DNA of 38,709 nucleotides, taken from Gammaproteobacteria bacterium TMED226. Its GTDB lineage: Bacteria > Pseudomonadota > Gammaproteobacteria > Magnimaribacterales > D2472. Numbering within the stretch: position 1 is the first letter of the stretch; the number at the start of each line of letters is the position of its first letter. The DNA lies in the NCBI GenBank assembly GCA_002169105.1, contig NHJX01000023.1, positions 8,284-46,992 of the forward strand, given 5' to 3'. The translations under genes were made by a program, and so were the position numbers. Below are positions 29,084 to 38,483 of this stretch, piece by piece. Under the pieces are notes generated by a model that was given only the letters and a program-made list of their open reading frames with translations, was not told the DNA's origin and ran no database searches.

Positions 29084-29585
29084 GTATGATTTGATTTACT
29101 AACTCTATAAGCTCATCAATTGATTTAGAGCCGTTTAGTATAAATTGAGAGTGATTATCGTATAGAGGCTCTCTTTCAGAATATACCTCTGTTATAGATA
29201 ACCCATCTGGAACAGCCAAGCCTCTTTCTTGCCCAAGATCTATACGTTCGATGATGGTATTAAGTGGAGTCTTAATATAAATAACTTTAGAAAATGTTTT
29301 TAAGTGCATCATAGATTTTTCTGAATAAACAGAACTTCCACCGGTTGAAATAACGTCAGACGATGAATCTAAGCTTAGAATTACTTTTTCTTCTTGAGAT
29401 CTAACAAACATATAACCATGTTTTTTCTTAATATCCTCTAATGAACAATTAAAGTCATTCTCAATAAGAAGATCTGTATCAATAAAATTTAAATTTAATT
29501 TCTCTGAAACAGCTTTGCCTAGAGTTGATTTACCACATCCAGCCATGCCTATAAAAGAAATACTATGCATTGCTTCCATATTCAT
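29076..29585 (-). CDS. Shikimate kinase-like P-loop kinase
   Basis: The 169-residue protein has the shikimate kinase fold: Walker A G-M-A-G-C-G-K-S-T (about residues 13-21), F-I-D-T-D, a V-R-S-Q-E-E substrate Arg and a C-terminal E-R-E-P-L-Y. The usual shikimate-binding G-G-G is G-G-S (S-T-G-G-S-S-V-Y), and the lid R-P-L-L reads R-G-L-A followed by a Pro-Asp-Gly insertion. It is therefore a divergent AroK; phosphorylation of shikimate or of another small hydroxyl compound such as homoserine are both possible. There is no aroB next to it. ATG at 29585 is used; ATG at 29570 is an alternative that removes five residues. Confidence 0.75.
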   Translation of the reverse strand: MNMEAMHSISFIGMAGCGKSTLGKAVSEKLNLNFIDTDLLIENDFNCSLEDIKKKHGYMFVRSQEEKVILSLDSSSDVISTGGSSVYSEKSMMHLKTFSKVIYIKTPLNTIIERIDLGQERGLAVPDGLSITEVYSEREPLYDNHSQFILNGSKSIDELIELVNQIIHD

Positions 29586-30525
29586 TTGTTGAACTAATAA
29601 GATGATGAGTTATTTCTTTCTCAAACGCGCTATGACCAGAAGAGGGCGCAACAATCAATTCAGCCTCAGGCCAATTTTTAGATAATTCCCAAGCTGTCGC
29701 CATCGGACAAATAATGTCATATCTTCCTTGAATAATTTTTGTAGGTATATCTCTTATTTTATCAATATTTTCTCTTTTAATGAGCTGGTCTTCTGAATCA
29801 AGAAAACCTTTGTTTACAAAATAATGATTTTCAATAAGAGCAAATGCCAATGCGAATTTTGGATCAGCAAAAGAAGAGACCAGCTCAGGCGTATAACTTA
29901 ATGTGCTTGTAGAAGCCTCCCATCTAGACCAAGCAATAGCTGCTTCTAGCTTTTTTTCTTCATCAGAGCCATTAAATATTTTGTAATAAGCATCCATTAA
30001 ATTATTATGATTTTTAGGATCGATGGGCTTAAGAAATCCTTCCCATGCATCGGGAAAAATTCTGCTTGCACCATCTTGATAAAACCAATCTAGCTCTTTT
30101 TGTCTGAGCATAAATATACCTCTAAGGACCAATTCACTAACTGACTCTGGATATGTCTGAGCATAGGCAAGAGATAAAGTGCTACCCCATGATCCTCCAA
30201 AGACTAGCCATCTGTCAATCTCTAGTAAACGTTTTAGAGCTTCTATATCTTCAACTAGGTCCCAGGTAGTATTATTTTCAAGACAACCATGAGGTTTGCT
30301 TCTTCCACAGCCCCTCTGGTCAAAAACAACAATCCTATATACCTCTGGATCAAAAAATCTTCTAACTTGGGTACTGCCTCCACCACCTGGACCCCCATGT
30401 AAAAAAATTGCTGGCTTTCCATTTGGATTACCAGATTCTTCATAATAGATTTGATGGCCATCCTGTTTTAAAAAGCCATCTGAAATCGGTTCACATTGTG
30501 GATATAGATTAAATTGAGTGCTCAT
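29563..30525 (-). CDS. pip: Proline iminopeptidase
   Basis: Pip removes N-terminal proline from peptides. The 320-residue alpha/beta hydrolase of family S33 has the oxyanion H-G-G-P-G-G-G, F-D-Q-R-G-C-G-R-S, and nucleophile Ser112 in F-G-G-S-W-G-S-T-L. The acid is in Q-G-R-Y-D-I-I-C-P and the His in S-S-G-H-S-A-F-E. The Y-P-Q-C-E-P start matches typical proteobacterial Pip. It probably works on peptides with other peptidases; the M2 peptidase is elsewhere in this window. It begins 27 bases after the accessory paralogue gene ends, on the same strand. Confidence 0.94.
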   Translation of the reverse strand: MSTQFNLYPQCEPISDGFLKQDGHQIYYEESGNPNGKPAIFLHGGPGGGGSTQVRRFFDPEVYRIVVFDQRGCGRSKPHGCLENNTTWDLVEDIEALKRLLEIDRWLVFGGSWGSTLSLAYAQTYPESVSELVLRGIFMLRQKELDWFYQDGASRIFPDAWEGFLKPIDPKNHNNLMDAYYKIFNGSDEEKKLEAAIAWSRWEASTSTLSYTPELVSSFADPKFALAFALIENHYFVNKGFLDSEDQLIKRENIDKIRDIPTKIIQGRYDIICPMATAWELSKNWPEAELIVAPSSGHSAFEKEITHHLISSTNEYGSNA

Positions 30526-30552: not shown

Positions 30553-32748
30553 TTAATCAAAGAACTTTGTTAAAAAATTAGGAGTAGTTCCCTCACATAC
30601 ATATGTTGGTTTTAAGCAGTTACCATGCACATTGCTCAAAAAAGGCCTTATTGAAATATTTTTTTCTATATTTTCTCCACTTTCAGAGATATTCACTAGT
30701 TTAAAGCATTTATATATACCTTCTTCCATACCTCTGCTATTTGATGCTCTTGAAAACTTTGCCTCCTTTTTGCATTCAATTGGAAGAACTTTTAATATAA
30801 TCTCACCCTGATCATTAAACTTTGTGTACTCTTTATTATTATTTTTTTCGAGAAAAACTTCACCATTTTCATGAAAAACTTTATAGGGTGCAATTAATTC
30901 ACCCTCCTCAAAGACTCCTTTAATCATAAGCTGACCATTTTTGTAATACTTTTCATATGCCCCATGCAGATATCTAAAATCAGTTTTTAAGATGCTGAAA
31001 TAGTTTTTTATATTTCCTTTCTCTTCTAACTTTCCCTCTTTAGAAAAGAAAGCATATGATTTTTTTTCTCCATTTTCATTTATCCCTTCATCTTCGATTT
31101 GACCATTTTTATAGAAGAATTTGTATGGACCAGTTTTTTCTCTTGCATTAGAAATTTCTTGCTTAATGCTCGTAATATCTTTTTCATAGTTCTGAATTGT
31201 AAAGTCACTACTCCCACCTGCCATCATGCATTCCATAGAGCCACTATTGTTCCAATCATCACAATCATTCATCTTGTAATCCAACGCACTGTCTTTTTCA
31301 ATCTTAAGTTGATATTGTGCAACATTAAGCTTACTTTCAAGATTGCTTATAACTTCTTCAGATGCAGGAACGAATGTCTGAAAATTAAAAATTTCACCAG
31401 AGAGGTAATATTTTAAATCTTCAGATCTTTTTAGCTCCCCCTCTTTATAAAAATTTTTTCTAATTAAGATATTATTACCATCATACCAATCCAAATCCTT
31501 TACCTTAACAAGGGTTTCTCTACCTTGACTATAATGATCAACGATAATACCGTCATAAACTTTTAGAGCATCATTTTTTCCAACATAAACCAGTTCCTCA
31601 CCCTCTCTGATCCCATTTCTGTAATTTGTTCGCGTAGAAATCGAACCATCATTAAAATAGGTTTCTTTGACTTCATTTAGACCTGAATTAAGAATACTAA
31701 CTCTTTCTTCTGCATACCTAAGCCACTCGGCAGCCATTGATTTATCAAGGAAATACTTTATAAACTTTCCCTCATCACTTAATTCAATAAATTTTTCAAG
31801 ATTTTCTAATTCAAGCTTTCTATTTGACAATGATTCTTGTCCAGTTCTAGAGGGGGAGTAGTCTTTGCTTAATTCATAATAAGCAGGGGCAAATTCATTA
31901 TTTTTTTGGATAAACTCTCTAAGCAATTGTGTTCTTGTTGGGGAGTTATATAAAACTATTTTTAAGTATTCAATTACTATTCTATTATCATTGTTAAAAA
32001 GTGAATTATAAACTTCTCTTGCACCAGCTCTGCCTTCCTGAAGTTTTAAAAATGTCTGATATCTAAGATGAGGATCTATGTAATCAAGCTTAAAAGTAAA
32101 ATATTGGTTATACATCCTTCGAGCATTTAGATAGTCGCCCCTATCTTCGTATACTCTTGCATTGTTATAAAACTCTTCTGGTCTTTTAGGTTCTGCAATT
32201 ATGCCGCCTAGTTTAGAGATTTGCTGAAATGAATCATTGATTTCATCAAGTTTACTTGCAATTACTTCATTTGAATCTTTTATCGTTTCAGTCAATTCTT
32301 TGGTTTGTTTAATATTTTCTTTAGAATCTTCTGCTATCGACTCAACAAGCTCTTCTGTTCTCAACGTTGATTCTTTAATTTCAGCAATATCTTTTTCTAA
32401 CATACCTAAATCTTTTTGAAGATTCCCAATCGCTGGAAAGCTTGCTGCTAACACGCCTTTATTAGAATTTGACTCATCCTGTGATGAGTACAAAAAACCA
32501 CTTAGAACCATTACTGTAATAGATGCCATAAGAAATTTAGAAAACTTCTTTCTTATGTCTTTCTTAATAAAGTATAAAAGCAAGAAAAGAGCTGATAACA
32601 CTCCACTCAAAATAAGTACATAAAATGTAATATTTGCTAATGGTTGAAGGAAGTCTGAAACAAAGGATGCTACAACTGATAATCCCATAGTAAAGACAAG
32701 CTCTTTACTCATTGCAGTACGAATAAATTCAGTATTTCCAGTGCTCAT
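30553..32748 (-). CDS. Membrane/coiled-coil/TPR protein with MORN-like C-terminal repeats
   Basis: The 731-residue protein has three membrane segments (about 17-34, 38-60 and 72-88). The K-K-D-I-R-K-K loop between the second and third is positively charged, so the rest is predicted periplasmic. Then come a coiled coil (about 110-180), TPR-like helices (about 188-300, with Y-N-N-A-R-V-Y-E-D-R-G-D-Y) and a variable C-terminal half. This half carries MORN-type (YwqK-like) repeats such as F-F-Y-K-N-G-Q-I-E-D-E-G and Y-Y-K-N-G-Q-L-M-I-K-G, and Cys-containing loops (C-D-D-W-N-N, M-E-C-M-M). Residues up to about 350 are strongly similar to the protein encoded at 32831-34834; the remainder is not. 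Function is unknown. MORN-type repeats also occur in some toxin-antitoxin partners, but no toxin is recognisable. Confidence 0.82.
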   Translation of the reverse strand: MSTGNTEFIRTAMSKELVFTMGLSVVASFVSDFLQPLANITFYVLILSGVLSALFLLLYFIKKDIRKKFSKFLMASITVMVLSGFLYSSQDESNSNKGVLAASFPAIGNLQKDLGMLEKDIAEIKESTLRTEELVESIAEDSKENIKQTKELTETIKDSNEVIASKLDEINDSFQQISKLGGIIAEPKRPEEFYNNARVYEDRGDYLNARRMYNQYFTFKLDYIDPHLRYQTFLKLQEGRAGAREVYNSLFNNDNRIVIEYLKIVLYNSPTRTQLLREFIQKNNEFAPAYYELSKDYSPSRTGQESLSNRKLELENLEKFIELSDEGKFIKYFLDKSMAAEWLRYAEERVSILNSGLNEVKETYFNDGSISTRTNYRNGIREGEELVYVGKNDALKVYDGIIVDHYSQGRETLVKVKDLDWYDGNNILIRKNFYKEGELKRSEDLKYYLSGEIFNFQTFVPASEEVISNLESKLNVAQYQLKIEKDSALDYKMNDCDDWNNSGSMECMMAGGSSDFTIQNYEKDITSIKQEISNAREKTGPYKFFYKNGQIEDEGINENGEKKSYAFFSKEGKLEEKGNIKNYFSILKTDFRYLHGAYEKYYKNGQLMIKGVFEEGELIAPYKVFHENGEVFLEKNNNKEYTKFNDQGEIILKVLPIECKKEAKFSRASNSRGMEEGIYKCFKLVNISESGENIEKNISIRPFLSNVHGNCLKPTYVCEGTTPNFLTKFFD

Positions 32749-32816
32749 AAACTAATTTAAATATGATTTGATTAAATTTACAACTTTTTAATCGCCGATT
32801 CAGTACCATCCTAAAT
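32744..32816 (-). repeat. Duplicated segment: paralogue leader and relic of SDR gene 3' end
   Basis: This 73-base segment aligns without gaps to 34830-34902. The first 30 bases (32744-32773, covering the start codon and leader) are identical, and 32 of the next 43 match. In the other copy the last 39 bases are the final codons of the SDR gene (stop at 34864-34866). Here the same frame, 32816 to 32778, reads ...T-E-S-A-I-K-K-L-stop, but is interrupted by a TAG and is not attached to an ORF. It is therefore a dead copy of the SDR 3' end left by a tandem duplication. Confidence 0.75.
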
Positions 32817-32830
32817 TAGCGTTTAGACTA

Positions 32831-34834
32831 TTACTGACAAGTATAATCACAATGATCTTCTTTAAGGAATTTCTCTATCATTTCTTCATCGTCTTTAAAC
32901 TTAATCTTAATAGTTACATATTTTATATCGTTAGGTATGCTTAAGATATATTGAAGCCCACCACCAGAGTCAATTTGACATGGTTGGTCAGTATAAGATT
33001 TTGTAACGTCACCTCTGCATGGTGCAAATTGATCATCTGACATATTTTGATACTCTTCTCTTGGTTTCCCGAATACAACGAATGGGTTTTTTGGATCACA
33101 CTCAATTAATTTAATGATTTTATCTGGTGTATTATTGTCATAACCTATTTTGATTTCAGAAATTCCACATGAATGACTTTGTAAATGAGACGTATATAGT
33201 GACGTATAATTTTTTGTTATAGTCTTTTGTGGTAAGTACCTATATTTAAGGCTAGGGTTTTGTTTTAACTGATCCTTAATTGTCTCTAAAGATGATATCG
33301 GAAGCGGGCTTGAAGAGTATGGTAGATTTATAATCTCATTTCCATCTGAATCCTTTCCAATTAAATCTTCAATTTCACCATATTCATAGTAGCTTCGAGG
33401 GCTTTCATTAAAAAGAATCCAACTAGACCTTGTCATATCCAGCACGCTCTTAGCATTCGCAACATGTGCATCTTTAGCATTAAAAATTATTTCAAATGGA
33501 CCTTGCATAATATCGTTAATATCAAGATATTTGATTGATATGATTTCATCAGTGGTCTTTAAAGGCAAATCTATCCATTTCTTTATTGCACGCTCGCCAG
33601 TTTTTGGATCTATCCAACTATCTAGCCCTGTTGATTTATATTCAGATTCTTTACTCGTTTTATAAAATATCTCTTTGATATCTTCTTTAAAACCTAAGTT
33701 TAAAGAGAAGTTACGGTTACTAACTTGGGAGGTATAGGTGACTCTAGAGCCGTCTAGCTTATTGGACAATCTTTTTAGCGCCTTAAGCCTCTCTTTAGAA
33801 TCACTAATCCAAGATCCAGCTAACTCCTTATCAATGAAATATCTTAAAAAATATCCTTGATTATGAAGCTCAAGAAATAGTTCTATGAATTGAAGCTCTT
33901 TCTTTTGATCTGACAGAGTTTGAATACCTAATCTAGACTTTGAGTATTCTTTACTAAGTTCATAGTATGCAGGAGCAAAGTATTTATTCTTTTGGATATA
34001 TTGTTCTAATAACTGTATTCTTTTTTTAGAATCAAATAGTAATATTCTGGCAAGTTCTATAGTTGGACTCGCATCAATCTCATATAAAGAGTTATATATT
34101 TCAAGCGCACCAGCTCTGCCTTCCTGAACCTTTAAAAATGTCTGATATCTAAGATGAGGGTCTATATAGTCAAGCTTAAAAGTAAAATATTGGTTATACA
34201 TTCTTCTTGCATTTAGATAATCGCCTCTTAGTTCATATATTCTGGCATTATTATAAAACTCTTCAGGTCTTTCAGGATTTGCGATAAGACCTCCAAGTTG
34301 GAAAATTTCTGAAAAAGACTCATTAATATCTTCAAGCTGTTCGACTATGACGGTATTAGTTTCTTTGATAGTTTCATTAAGTTCTTTGGTTTGATTAATA
34401 CTTTCTTTTGAATCTTCTGCTAAAGATTCAATAAGCTCTTCTGTTCTCAACGTTGATTCTTTAATTTCAGCAATATCTTTTTCCAACATACCTAAATCTT
34501 GTTGAAGATTTCCAAGCGCTGGAAAGTTTGCTGCTAGTACTCCTTTTTCAGAATTTGATTCATCCTGCGCCGAATACAAAAAACCACTTAGAGCCATTAG
34601 TGTAATAGATGCCATAAGATATTTAGAGAACTTCTTTCTTATATCTTTCTTAATAAGGTATAAAAGCAAGAAAAGAGCTGACAGGGCTGCGCTCAAAATG
34701 AGTGCGTAAAAAGTAATGTTTGCCAAAGGCTGAAGAAAGTCAGAAATAAAAGATACTACAAATGAGAACCCCGCTGTAAAGATGAACTCTTTGCTCATTG
34801 CGGTGCGCACAAATTCAGTATATCTAATACTCAT
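32831..34834 (-). CDS. Membrane/coiled-coil/TPR paralogue with a different C-terminal domain
   Basis: The 667-residue protein has the same N-terminal plan as its neighbour at 30553-32748: three membrane segments, coiled coil and TPR-like helices. In residues 189-251, 57 of 63 residues are identical; in 111-140, 27 of 30. After about residue 350 the sequence is unrelated to the neighbour. The unique C-terminal half lacks MORN repeats, is rich in Ser, Asp and Lys, and ends with several cysteines (F-A-P-C-R-G, D-Q-P-C-Q, H-C-D-Y-T-C). A beta-rich segment follows K-Y-V-T-I-K-I-K-F. By charge the soluble part is periplasmic. I recognise no enzymatic motif. It sits directly after the SDR gene, which starts the run. 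Confidence 0.82.
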   Translation of the reverse strand: MSIRYTEFVRTAMSKEFIFTAGFSFVVSFISDFLQPLANITFYALILSAALSALFLLLYLIKKDIRKKFSKYLMASITLMALSGFLYSAQDESNSEKGVLAANFPALGNLQQDLGMLEKDIAEIKESTLRTEELIESLAEDSKESINQTKELNETIKETNTVIVEQLEDINESFSEIFQLGGLIANPERPEEFYNNARIYELRGDYLNARRMYNQYFTFKLDYIDPHLRYQTFLKVQEGRAGALEIYNSLYEIDASPTIELARILLFDSKKRIQLLEQYIQKNKYFAPAYYELSKEYSKSRLGIQTLSDQKKELQFIELFLELHNQGYFLRYFIDKELAGSWISDSKERLKALKRLSNKLDGSRVTYTSQVSNRNFSLNLGFKEDIKEIFYKTSKESEYKSTGLDSWIDPKTGERAIKKWIDLPLKTTDEIISIKYLDINDIMQGPFEIIFNAKDAHVANAKSVLDMTRSSWILFNESPRSYYEYGEIEDLIGKDSDGNEIINLPYSSSPLPISSLETIKDQLKQNPSLKYRYLPQKTITKNYTSLYTSHLQSHSCGISEIKIGYDNNTPDKIIKLIECDPKNPFVVFGKPREEYQNMSDDQFAPCRGDVTKSYTDQPCQIDSGGGLQYILSIPNDIKYVTIKIKFKDDEEMIEKFLKEDHCDYTCQ

Positions 34835-34863
34835 AAACTAATTTAAATATGATTTGATTGAAT

Positions 34864-35844
34864 TTACAATTTTTCAATCATTAATTCAGTAGCTTCCCAA
34901 AGTCTTGATCCTTCGTCAGTATTAACTGCCCAATCTGCTACTCCAAAATATCTCTGCATAGACTCGTCAACTTCAGACTTTCTTTTTGCAATATCACAAT
35001 CTTCACAGAAGACACCACCTAGACCCTTTAAATCAGGACTAGTTGCGCACCACAAAGCAGTTGAAGCGCCCTGGCTTGTTGATTTGAAGAAATTTTTTGC
35101 AAGTTCAGATGGAGATCCATCTTCATCCATCCAACCCAGAGCAACCATTTCTTCTTTTTCTAGATGTCTTTGAAGAGGGGTGATAATTCCTCCTGGATGA
35201 ACAGCAAATCCTTCTACACCTTTATCTTTCATTCTGGTATTGAATTCTATAGCCATTAACGAGCAAGCCGTTTTAGATTGACCATAAGCCATCCATTTAT
35301 CATATGGAGTTTTTTGAAAATGAATATCATCCCAGAGAATACCAGTTAGTGAATGAGCTGATGATGACAAACTAACAAATCTTGCTCCCTCAACATCTTC
35401 CATCATGTCCATTAACTCATTGGTAAGTAAAAAATGTCCTATGTGGTTAACAGCAAACTGACTTTCCCAATTATTTCCAATTCTCGTTTCAGGACAGGCC
35501 ATTATTCCTGCATTATTTATTAGTAGATCTAACTTGCTAAAATTTTCTTTAAAATTATCTGTAAACTCTTTTACAGAATTAAGATCGCTAAGGTCCATCT
35601 TAATAATATTATCCTGAGAGACTATCCCATTAAGATTTTTAAAAGCGATTTCAGGACGTTTTGCAGGAATGATTACTTTTGCACCAGCTAAAACTAATCC
35701 TTTAGTAGTTTCAAGACCAATGCCGGAATATCCACCAGTAACTATTGCTACTTTATCCGAAAGATTGATTTCACTAAGAATATCTGATGTTTCGGACTTT
35801 GAGTTAAAGCCAGAATTTATAGGCTTCTGATTGTCTGAAATCAT
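34864..35844 (-). CDS. Short-chain dehydrogenase/reductase
   Basis: The 326-residue protein is a classical SDR. It has the cofactor motif T-G-G-Y-S-G-I-G (36-43), N-N-A-G (110-113), S-L-S-S-S-A-H around the catalytic Ser (about 160-162) and Y-G-Q-S-K with Tyr187 and Lys191. V-N-H-I-G-H-F-L-L and the C-terminal region recall retinol dehydrogenase/WWOX-like SDRs. There is no signal peptide, so it is cytoplasmic and NAD(P)-dependent. The substrate is unknown. Its position between two accessory genes could be chance; its 3' end was copied in the tandem duplication seen at 32778-32816. Its final codons lie just upstream of the 667-residue paralogue. Confidence 0.9.
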   Translation of the reverse strand: MISDNQKPINSGFNSKSETSDILSEINLSDKVAIVTGGYSGIGLETTKGLVLAGAKVIIPAKRPEIAFKNLNGIVSQDNIIKMDLSDLNSVKEFTDNFKENFSKLDLLINNAGIMACPETRIGNNWESQFAVNHIGHFLLTNELMDMMEDVEGARFVSLSSSAHSLTGILWDDIHFQKTPYDKWMAYGQSKTACSLMAIEFNTRMKDKGVEGFAVHPGGIITPLQRHLEKEEMVALGWMDEDGSPSELAKNFFKSTSQGASTALWCATSPDLKGLGGVFCEDCDIAKRKSEVDESMQRYFGVADWAVNTDEGSRLWEATELMIEKL

Positions 35845-35867: not shown

Positions 35868-36851
35868 CTAGCTAGTAGGATCTTCTTCTTTAAAGATATC
35901 CTCGCAGCTAGTTTCAATGTCATAAGCCATGCTTACGCCAATTTCTGCAAAATAGCTTTCCCATATTTCTAAAAGCCCAATATCTAAATCTTGGTCATGT
36001 CTGCATTGAAGATAATATACAAAAACCTCAGGTGGATTTGTACCAAAATTTGGTTTCATATCTTCCCATAGACGTTCTGAATAATTGCTCTTTAGATCTT
36101 CATAAGAAATACATTTCTTCTTATCTCTGCATGATGATATTAAGTCCATTTTGTCAGAAAACTGCATTAAATCAGAGAAGACTATAATTTTTCTATATTG
36201 GTAATTAGAACCAAAATCTAATGTTGAATTCCTAGAAAGCTCTTTTATTTGTTCCATTATTTGAGAATAGGCACCTTTAGTATTTCCTAAATTTGAAAAC
36301 TCATCTCCAGCAGAGTTAATTAATTTCATAAACTCTCTATTTGTATTTGCCATTTTTTTAGCAGTGCTACTAGGATCTACCCATTTATCAATAGGGTACA
36401 TAGAAGTATCCTTACCGCTTCGAGGCTTACACTCATTAAAGATAGGTTTTAATTCTGTTGCTTGCATCCCTCTACCTGCAATATTCATAATGGAGATTTT
36501 GTCATAAGGACCAATAATATCTATATTTTGCTCAGCAAGCATTTGGTTTAATAATAATGAATATTGCTCTTCTTCATATCCTTCAGTACTATCAACTAAT
36601 ACAAAATTATGGCCATATTTTGCCTGAGGAGGGCACCAACTATCCCACTGATTTGCATCAGAAGTTCTATCGTTTTTTCTTGTTATTTCACTGCCTTTAC
36701 ACAAAAATTGTTTATATTTTTCATCACCCATATTTATACTGTTGCAAAATGTTGGATCAGCGGCACTGGGAAGAGGATCACTTCCACCTCCACAACCGTA
36801 TATAAACACTAAAGCAAAAAAGCTAAGAAAAAGATTGTTATATAATTTCAT
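35868..36851 (-). CDS. Lipoprotein with a VWA-like domain, function unknown
   Basis: The 327-residue protein has a lipobox (F-I-Y-G-C, Cys20) followed by G-G-G-S-D, so it should be a membrane-anchored envelope lipoprotein. The mature part looks like a von Willebrand A fold: a strand H-N-F-V-L-V-D-S-T-E near residue 81-90 ending in Asp87, and a second strand K-I-I-V-F-S-D-L-M-Q near 221-230. The metal-site motif D-x-S-x-S is not complete, so metal binding is doubtful. Several further cysteines (36, 51, 73, 141, 241, 247, 283, 316) suggest disulfides. It starts one base after the membrane protein gene's stop, with AAGGA seven bases before the ATG, so the two form an operon. Confidence 0.75.
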   Translation of the reverse strand: MKLYNNLFLSFFALVFIYGCGGGSDPLPSAADPTFCNSINMGDEKYKQFLCKGSEITRKNDRTSDANQWDSWCPPQAKYGHNFVLVDSTEGYEEEQYSLLLNQMLAEQNIDIIGPYDKISIMNIAGRGMQATELKPIFNECKPRSGKDTSMYPIDKWVDPSSTAKKMANTNREFMKLINSAGDEFSNLGNTKGAYSQIMEQIKELSRNSTLDFGSNYQYRKIIVFSDLMQFSDKMDLISSCRDKKKCISYEDLKSNYSERLWEDMKPNFGTNPPEVFVYYLQCRHDQDLDIGLLEIWESYFAEIGVSMAYDIETSCEDIFKEEDPTS

Positions 36852-36852
36852 A

Positions 36853-38451
36853 TTAAATTCCTTTATGTCTTATATCATTATCATCTAATTTTTTGATAAA
36901 TTCATCAAGAGTTAACCTTTCATCATCAAAAAATTGGCTATAAATAGAAACCATGGCTTCATATTCGGCATTTATTTTTTGCCTAAATTCTGTCTGCATT
37001 TCTCTCTTTTTAAGATCTGAAATATGATATTCAGAAATAGCTTCATAGGCCTCGTTAAAACCTTCATTAAATTGAGGCATATGCGGACTGCCAAAATATG
37101 CTGGCGCTACAGTATCTCTATATTCCATGTTTGCAGTTCTATAATTTTGTGTAGATATTTTTAAGGTCTCTTCCATTTTACCTTTGAACACCTTAAATTT
37201 TTGAGCACATCTTTGAACCACATCTATATATTTTCCCCATACGTTAACGCATAGAAGACGATATTCATGTCTTTCTTTTAAACCATCTTCATAGTTTTTT
37301 TGATTAACAGAAAATACTGAGTGTCGATGTTGTTTAAGTTTCTTGACCCTCATCTTAGCTGAAGCAAGATTATCTCCTACTTTTTGATACCCAGGAATGG
37401 GGTCATTAAAGAAGTAGCCATCAATCATAGTTATCAATGCGAAGAAAAACCCCATGAATAATAGAAAAGCACCATCGAAAGATATTTGACCAAGGTTATC
37501 AAAAGGGAATACAGAATTATAAAAGGCTTCATTTGTAAGGTTATCTGAAATTTCTCTTGTAGTCGCTTCTTGAGCTGCATTTGTTAATGATCTAAATACA
37601 CCCAACATAAAGTTAAGATAAACAAGGACAGCAGTATACAAGGTGAAGAAGAATCCATAGAAAATAATTCTAGGCTTCTTTGTTACATTTACCGGGTTAA
37701 AGAAGTGAGTTAATACGAGATAGCCAATCAAAAAGGATAAGCCAACATTAATAGCTGCTACTGTAAAACTTAAATAACTAGCCTGAGCTATACCAGTGGC
37801 ATCTTTTAAAGCACCAAAATTTAAATAAATTTCAATTGAAAATAAACTAACAGGTATTAATATCTTTATAAATTTTAAGATTTTAGATGGAGCAAAAGGC
37901 TCTCTTGTAACTGGAATACTGTTTTCTCTCTTAAATCGATTTAGATCAGAATAAGCATCCATCCTTTCAGTTATAGCTTCTTCGATCCTATTTGAAAATA
38001 AACTCTTTTTTGATTGCCAGTCTTGTTTCATTGACTCAAACATTCCCTTATAACCGTTAGCTTCGATAACTTCTTCTAAATCCTCAAACTTATCTTCTAG
38101 AGATTTATTTGAGTCCAGGATTGTAAATTCATCAATTCTAGTAAGCTCAGATTGATAATGACTGTTAATCCTGCTTTTAATGTTTTCTTCTGTTTTTGCT
38201 AAAGATGTCCTTTCAGAAGGAGGGTGATTTTGATTTCCATCGATCTGACCCTTTTCTATTGGATTGATTTCAACGTTAATTATTCCAACATCAATAGATT
38301 TCCAATATCTTGGTATAATTCCAACAACTTCACCTTTATTCATTGAAGGTCTAAGAGATTGTTGAGGACCTCTATTTTTGTAATACCAAAAAAGAATAAG
38401 CGCGACAACTAAAAGCGTCACAGCTAAAATAACATAATTTACTATTCCCAT
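36853..38451 (-). CDS. Multi-pass membrane protein with coiled coils, function unknown
   Basis: The 532-residue protein has a first membrane segment (about 4-23), a soluble region with coiled-coil character (about 45-190), four membrane segments (about 203-223, 233-259, 268-292 and 332-358) and a long helical C-terminal part (about 370-532). Basic loops put the soluble regions in the cytoplasm, with one acidic periplasmic loop between the fourth and fifth segments. I recognise no family. The ATG at 38451 is preferred: GAAGGGAG lies six bases before it, whereas the upstream ATG at 38457 would begin directly on that site. It is cotranscribed with the VWA-like lipoprotein downstream. A palindrome in its leader (38484-38503) may be an operator. 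Confidence 0.78.
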   Translation of the reverse strand: MGIVNYVILAVTLLVVALILFWYYKNRGPQQSLRPSMNKGEVVGIIPRYWKSIDVGIINVEINPIEKGQIDGNQNHPPSERTSLAKTEENIKSRINSHYQSELTRIDEFTILDSNKSLEDKFEDLEEVIEANGYKGMFESMKQDWQSKKSLFSNRIEEAITERMDAYSDLNRFKRENSIPVTREPFAPSKILKFIKILIPVSLFSIEIYLNFGALKDATGIAQASYLSFTVAAINVGLSFLIGYLVLTHFFNPVNVTKKPRIIFYGFFFTLYTAVLVYLNFMLGVFRSLTNAAQEATTREISDNLTNEAFYNSVFPFDNLGQISFDGAFLLFMGFFFALITMIDGYFFNDPIPGYQKVGDNLASAKMRVKKLKQHRHSVFSVNQKNYEDGLKERHEYRLLCVNVWGKYIDVVQRCAQKFKVFKGKMEETLKISTQNYRTANMEYRDTVAPAYFGSPHMPQFNEGFNEAYEAISEYHISDLKKREMQTEFRQKINAEYEAMVSIYSQFFDDERLTLDEFIKKLDDNDIRHKGI

Positions 38452-38483
38452 ATCCATCTCCCTTCAAGGCTGATTATCTAATA

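Follow-up and report, generated by a model that had tools for sequence, protein, structure and literature searches.

Domain exchange as such is well known, and tip displacement in Rhs proteins provides a described example. As set out in one report (PMC2935791), the tip is displaced via homologous recombination in the core, and the old tip is shunted downstream. MORN repeats, which form one of the two C-terminal ends considered here, are described as protein-protein interaction modules in another (PMC7725318). Here we analyze a tandem pair of genes, encoding the proteins P0001 and P0002, in a 38,709-nucleotide stretch of DNA from Gammaproteobacteria bacterium TMED226 (contig NHJX01000023.1; the whole stretch is hereafter called the window). 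A preliminary description made from the sequence alone had proposed that these paralogues share a membrane anchor, differ in exchangeable C-terminal domains, and resemble polymorphic surface or effector families. The modular exchange of ends is supported by our results; the polymorphic effector is not. The anchor and one of the tips, a beta domain, are matched by no model of Pfam or NCBIfam.

We consider it moderately probable that the pair represents a modular periplasmic sensor or scaffold, anchored in the inner membrane and bearing an exchangeable tip, whose present form reflects a MORN replacement in SAR86, insertion between neighboring genes, and homogenization. According to this proposal, a TPR core would be held in the periplasm by about three N-terminal helices and a coiled coil, and would itself carry the C-terminal tip. 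P0002 would have the usual beta tip of the family, and P0001 and its orthologue in genome G016 would have a MORN tip that replaced the beta tip in SAR86. The architecture, the other combinations of its modules, the patchy homogenization, the scar, and the interrupted gene neighborhood are established as far as sequence comparison can establish them. That the tip binds a ligand or partner in a sensor or scaffold role, and that a change of tip alters recognition, is the part of the proposal we advance most cautiously, and the choice between sensor and scaffold is nearly open.

As the preliminary description stated, the genes stand in tandem; each is an intact open reading frame (ORF). Both lie on the minus strand (the plus-strand reading of both stretches is full of stops), and therefore P0002 is the upstream gene and P0001 the downstream gene, with 82 bases between them and 27 bases between P0001 and the next gene (Table 1). 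The first 352 residues of the proteins align without gaps and include 249 identities (71%). Thus, the claim that they are nearly the same over about 350 residues is borne out only for patches. One such patch, reported to have 57 of 63 residues identical (189 to 251), was confirmed by counting six differences on the alignment. The TPR-like helices noted earlier are likewise recovered, by a TPR-core profile and by a match to the OGT TPR fold (E value 1.4e-5); this general TPR fold is the only match of the core among solved structures.

The switch point coincides with the end of the TPR core at residue 352. Beyond it, a forced alignment of the two proteins contains only 68 identities in 288 columns, and BLAST and hhalign comparisons of one end with the other yielded nothing significant. 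A composition-unadjusted BLAST alignment extended to residue 548 and was not taken as homology. Residues 353 to 731 of P0001 contain 15 overlapping matches, at nine sites, to a MORN motif that was written after viewing the P0001 sequence; the shuffled mean is 0.37, and none of 1000 shuffles had as many. Against the Pfam model MORN_2 (PF07661, cut-off 29.6), the P0001 end scores 28.5 bits, which is below the cut-off, and the end of the G016 orthologue scores 33.5 bits, which is above it. A beta profile built from seven non-SAR86 proteins gives 122 bits for the P0002 end and 1.8 bits for the P0001 end (best of 400 shuffles, 10.1), and hhalign with this profile returns a probability of 99.5% over 192 columns for the former versus 0.5% for the latter. 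The ends are thus unrelated, and that of P0001 is of the MORN type, as first described. The other end had been called a Cys-rich beta domain. It is indeed a beta domain with a conserved cysteine pair, spaced 23 residues apart in eight of eight beta domains, but its cysteine count does not set it apart because both ends contain six cysteines (residues 1 to 352 of either protein contain none). In sum, the TPR core, the beta profile match, and the cysteine pair 23 residues apart are all present in P0002, and only the TPR core is present in P0001.

Relatives carry these modules in other combinations. Of 203 genomes of the order, two carry the N-terminal part, a number too small for judging polymorphism within SAR86; in a class sample, it was found in 4 of 369 genomes (the same two plus G360 and G433). 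The TPR core turned up in 8 of the 398 genomes of a phylum sample (window genome included), in 1 of 48 (G613 itself only), and in 4 of 385. The last four are G576 itself, G1001, and two with scattered TPR matches (G996 and G1122, E value about 1e-4) that were dropped as general TPR proteins and left out of the family. The resulting set comprises 12 TPR-core proteins from 11 genomes, namely P0001, P0002, and the proteins of G016, G433, G613, G806, G823, G721, G674, G576, G845, and G1001.

The anchor and coiled coil precede the TPR core in seven of these (P0001, P0002, G016, G613, G823, G721, and G674). The place of the anchor is taken by a class III cyclase plus one membrane segment in G576 and G845 (Guanylate_cyc, 46.0 and 45.1 bits, cut-off 21.9; this domain is absent from P0001 and P0002), by a signal-peptide-like start alone in G1001 (judged by eye), by a domain of about 190 residues without assignment in G433, and by a coil with no membrane part in G806, which has a short end. 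The G433 domain looked CsgG/LpoB-like by eye, a resemblance that found no support on checking. The beta domain is the commonest end, occurring in 8 of the 12 proteins (P0002, G433, G613, G823, G721, G674, G576, and G845), five of which also have the anchor (P0002, G613, G823, G721, and G674). In G1001 the contig ends within the beta match, truncating it at position 91 of the profile, and G1001 and G806 are not counted among the eight. The MORN end, with anchor and TPR core, occurs in P0001 and G016.

Four G360 proteins carry the anchor without a TPR core or beta domain (30.4 to 61.5 bits; best of 500 shuffles, 4.2). One ends in ankyrin repeats (79.9 bits, far above the Pfam cut-off), another has an ankyrin match below the cut-off, and two have none. 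When the coil is removed the anchor match persists, although two of the four proteins then match weakly (14.2 and 15.1 bits, best shuffle 5.5). These same-anchor paralogues (L025-L028) reside in one genome, which is thus a further candidate setting for tip exchange; in three of them the coil is followed by the sequence NPRKELANMG, beyond which they diverge. The anchor is therefore found with TPR plus beta, with TPR plus MORN, and with other ends lacking TPR, which agrees with the earlier proposal that C-terminal parts are replaced on a shared membrane anchor. The N-terminal half does occur with other ends, and the two ends have not diverged gradually from one another.

Neither the anchor nor the beta domain reached the cut-off of any Pfam or NCBIfam model. 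Among solved structures, the beta domain has no match up to an E value of 1, and the anchor matches coiled coils only (0.04 or worse). Weak matches, including Pfam DUF948, O-antigen_lig, and others below cut-off, as well as PHROG 20584 (function not known) to the P0001 coil (E value 9.9e-5), were not used. A literature search, with subscription papers mostly outside it, returned no description of this family. Mobile-element searches gave no match for P0002 in plasmids and viral contigs, for P0001 in phages, for the TPR and anchor alignments in viral contigs, for the G433 protein or one G360 protein in plasmids and phages, or for the G823 and G613 proteins in plasmids.

The direction of the exchange is suggested by the TPR cores and by the company each end keeps. 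G016, a genome of the same genus through which the window genome (G000) is inferred to belong to SAR86, has a single such gene, which is the P0001 orthologue (80% identical over its full length, including the MORN end). The alignment of the G433 protein with P0002 spans both TPR and beta, at 38% over 325 columns and 39% over a further 49, and its alignment with P0001 is limited to coil and TPR. In a tree of TPR cores, P0002 is sister to P0001 plus G016 (support 98/96, or 88/92 without everything before residue 241), and these group with beta-bearing G433 and G613 and with G806, six in all. By parsimony, the MORN end would have replaced the beta end in SAR86 before the window genome and G016 parted. 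A search of 120 relatives for the source of the MORN tip gave, beyond G000 and G016, just two weak matches, which are 44 and 47 residues long (G107 and G021). The beta tip of P0002 has two SAR86-specific inserts, at about residues 477 to 538 and 592 to 628. The first, of about 62 residues (33218-33402, minus strand, residues 478 to 539), begins with a single MORN-like motif at residue 482, a count reached in 13 of 1000 shuffles; the motif is perhaps a trace of exchange with a MORN end.

The shared region is itself a mosaic. For P0001 (A), P0002 (B), and the G016 gene (C), 294 sites over codons 1 to 352 group two genes against one, with 162 AC, 75 BC, and 57 AB sites. Their distribution (AC/BC/AB) is 21/38/26 in codons 1 to 144, 39/11/12 in 145 to 208, 0/8/2 in 209 to 240, and 102/18/17 in 241 to 352. 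Sites of the AC class, which agree with the gene tree, are thus concentrated in codons 145 to 208 and 241 to 352. An equally strong segment arose in none of 2000 permutations for either AB or BC versus AC. Moreover, P0002 and the G016 gene are identical over an 80-base run in codons 203 to 229. Synonymous divergence (dS) is 0.19 for B-C in codons 1 to 50 and 0.18 for A-B in codons 101 to 150, and it is at least 1.6 or saturated for both pairs in codons 151 to 200 and 251 to 350. Flanking orthologues (PIP, SDR, AroK, and FbpB) range from 1.10 to 1.76, with 0.88 for the last third of SDR and saturation for the aminotransferase.

Codons 1 to 144 and 209 to 240 of P0002 thus look homogenized by recombination with a MORN-type gene, and the remainder is an old paralogue; outside these tracts, identity in the TPR part is already 42 to 54% at residues 251 to 350. 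The 57-of-63 stretch overlaps the second tract. Recent homogenization accounts for part of the high identity immediately ahead of the switch. Either conversion inside one genome or recombination between lineages could have produced the tracts.

The pair occupies a normally tight neighborhood. Its borders are an SDR-family oxidoreductase gene and a peptidase gene that we take to encode a proline iminopeptidase (PIP), the same genes that flank the G016 orthologue. Matches of orthologue quality to both (two SDR matches being partial) are present in 25 of 34 genomes of the genus, and the two genes are 8 to 24 bases apart in 22 of the 25, with distances of 353 bases in G010, 2255 in G016, and 4341 here. 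Ahead of P0001 lies a decayed copy of the SDR gene end (alignment score 20; the best of 2000 shuffles reached 18). It is accompanied by a spacer whose second copy follows the real SDR gene, and the chance expectation for matches to the spacer pattern is none. The following order of events may be proposed. A P0001-type gene would have entered between the adjacent SDR and peptidase genes, leaving P0001 directly after SDR, as in G016. Later, a P0002-type gene would have come in upstream of P0001 by an event that reached into the SDR end and left the SDR 3′ scar, and recombination would then have homogenized part of the shared N-terminal region.

Table 1. Features of the P0001/P0002 locus, in window coordinates.
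Feature	Position	Strand	Basis
P0001, anchor + TPR core + MORN tip, 731 amino acids	30553..32748	-	Profiles; orthologue in G016
P0001 residues 1-182, anchor module (membrane segments + coiled coil)	32203..32748	-	Hydropathy; profile matches G613, G823, G721, G674, G360
P0001 residues 183-352, TPR core	31693..32202	-	TPR-core profile; OGT TPR fold match
P0001 residues 353-731, MORN-type tip, six Cys	30556..31692	-	Motif count; Pfam MORN_2
P0002, anchor + TPR core + beta tip, 667 amino acids	32831..34834	-	Alignments; beta profile
P0002 residues 1-182, anchor module	34289..34834	-	Hydropathy; anchor profile
P0002 residues 183-352, TPR core	33779..34288	-	TPR-core profile
P0002 residues 353-667, beta tip, conserved Cys pair 556/579, two SAR86-specific inserts	32834..33778	-	Beta profile
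P0002 codons 1-144, apparently homogenized with MORN-type genes	34403..34834	-	Site patterns and dS
P0002 codons 209-240, apparently homogenized tract, overlaps 80-base run	34115..34210	-	Site patterns
Decayed copy of last 38 bases of SDR gene, putative insertion scar ahead of P0001	32778..32815	-	29/38 bases alike
29-base spacer before P0001 and before P0002	32749..32777; second copy 34835-34863	-	One-base difference between the copies
SDR-family oxidoreductase gene, upstream border	34864..35844	-	NCBIfam PRK06196.1, 420 bits
Peptidase gene, downstream border	29563..30525	-	Read by eye

The same joint shows other rearrangements. G010 has a third kind of insertion there (L019:6902-7160), of about 350 bases with a possible 81-amino-acid membrane ORF on the other strand. 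In G012 (C2:158592-162441, match coordinates), SDR and peptidase are duplicated in tandem, the first peptidase copy being matched over residues 6 to 84 only. The spot seems prone to duplication. Nearby in the window (35868-38457, minus strand) are genes for a multi-helix membrane protein of 534 amino acids and a secreted or lipoprotein-like protein of 327 amino acids, the latter possibly vWA-like as judged by eye. They are adjacent in eight of eight loci read (a ninth genome, G034, with an E value of 3.4e-4, is not among these), and none of their matches to Pfam, PADLOC, or NCBIfam families exceeds the cut-off. Their identity to the G016 pair is 36% and 40%, compared with 84% for the neighboring SDR, so the pair may be fast-changing or replaced. 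A single system uniting these genes with P0001 and P0002 was ruled out because six of the eight loci have no anchor gene.

Hydropathy places membrane segments near residues 16 to 34 and 40 to 61 in all three SAR86 proteins. The positive-inside rule would put the basic loop that precedes residue 69 on the inner side of the membrane and the whole of the protein beyond about residue 90 on the outer side. The cysteine pattern and hydropathy are both consistent with a periplasmic tip. The joining of the TPR-beta unit to a nucleotide cyclase in G576 and G845, with hydrophobic segments between cyclase and TPR, hints at a sensor, and GGDEF genes flank the G613 gene on both sides (64.9 and 59.9 bits).

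Several observations weigh against the anchored, tip-exchanging sensor or scaffold as we propose it. The TPR tree has long branches and unresolved outgroups, and the MORN replacement is known from two related genes and thus represents one event. Of the three membrane segments in the preliminary description, the third (residues 69 to 87) exceeds the threshold in P0001 only and is weak in P0002 and the G016 protein, where alignment nonetheless suggests a third helix. AlphaFold2 models are too poor for use, with a mean predicted local distance difference test score (pLDDT) of 37.4 for P0001 (two-row alignment) and 35.0 for P0002 (three-row alignment). Contrasts between AB and BC sites are weak (97 and 144 of 2000 permutations), and unevenness of constraint is not part of the permutation model, although protein constraint alone would not make silent sites agree. 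Finally, a D-Ala-D-Ala carboxypeptidase gene (Peptidase_S11, 187 to 192 bits) adjoins the gene in three of three f220 genomes, a neighbor that would suit a role at the cell wall.

TPR cores bind proteins, and an anchored TPR stem might simply tether or regulate cell-wall or outer-membrane machinery, with the tip selecting the partner. This envelope scaffold, which would also accord with the carboxypeptidase neighbor and with MORN repeats as interaction modules, is a real though unlikely alternative. The f220 genomes are a single genus, cyclase fusions occur in two relatives, and the G613 gene stands between GGDEF genes; nothing comparable adjoins the SAR86 genes.

That the genes serve phage defense in a variable spot, their tips sensing infection, is distinctly improbable. 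They are rare genes interrupting a tight neighborhood, and G016 has type I restriction genes, as judged by eye, at a distance of about 6.5 kb; nevertheless, PADLOC gave no match except a weak one of the P0001 helices to the Csx1 TM+CARF model (14.1 bits, E value 0.0098), and the relatives lie outside visible defense loci (by eye).

Very improbable, too, is the effector or surface weapon of the preliminary description, wherein the N-terminal half would be a delivery part and the tips toxic or adhesive payloads. Exchange of tips at a fixed joint on a recombining stem does resemble Rhs tip displacement, and the MORN end has a weak match to the LIC20035 family of adhesins, at 16.3 bits far below the cut-off of 250. 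Against it, no convincing toxin or secretion family match was found in Pfam, PADLOC, NCBIfam, or PHROGs. The intervals downstream of the two genes leave no room for an immunity gene, the stem carries membrane segments, and the same beta tip is kept across distant genomes. In addition, the window genome (775,625 bases in 23 contigs, 63% complete, estimated contamination 0.03) has no further copy of the pair's genes, and the N-terminal part has just two carriers among the genomes of the order, a small basis for judging polymorphism.

We give hardly any credence to the idea that the ends are one domain diverged beyond recognition: the TPR parts outside the homogenized tracts have indeed diverged, but profiles from other classes and other members of the phylum find the P0002 end and not the P0001 end, which consists of MORN repeats. 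It is just as remote that the tandem is an assembly artifact joining two alleles of one gene, since an allele join would carry an intact SDR end, whereas the one before P0001 is decayed and contamination is low, even though the genome is incomplete and fragmented and the arrangement was seen only once.

A bolder version of the favored proposal, which we regard as doubtful and offer tentatively, is a receptor-like family in which whole tips are exchanged at the end of the TPR core. Recombination in the anchor and TPR would keep stems alike for trading tips between SAR86 lineages, as an Rhs-like tip displacement serving periplasmic sensing or partner choice and not killing. The anchor, TPR core, and beta tip occur in six combinations across Proteobacteria, and one tip replacement, with its recombination tracts and insertion scar, appears to have been caught in SAR86, a streamlined, largely uncultured ocean group. 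Should specificity reside in the tips, the two genes would be a natural experiment in how membrane receptors gain new specificity via whole-domain replacement.

The closest published process we found is Rhs tip displacement, although the family is not the same. Both have a conserved core and C-terminal ends that are unrelated and exchanged, but here both genes are complete, the stem is a membrane anchor plus TPR, no toxin or Rhs domain was found, and no string of orphan tips was seen beside the pair, nor a further copy in the 63% complete genome. Polymorphic toxins share the plan of a common N-terminal part with exchangeable C-terminal domains; they differ in that no toxin, delivery, or immunity component was found here. 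The G576 and G845 proteins, which we take to be class III nucleotidyl cyclases with TPR parts, fuse a cyclase to the TPR-beta unit, whereas the SAR86 proteins have no cyclase and their N-terminal module is a multi-helix anchor plus coiled coil. Proteins of the MORN_2 family have the repeats found in the ends of P0001 and the G016 gene, but here the repeats are not stand-alone and form a tip with six cysteines on an anchored TPR stem.

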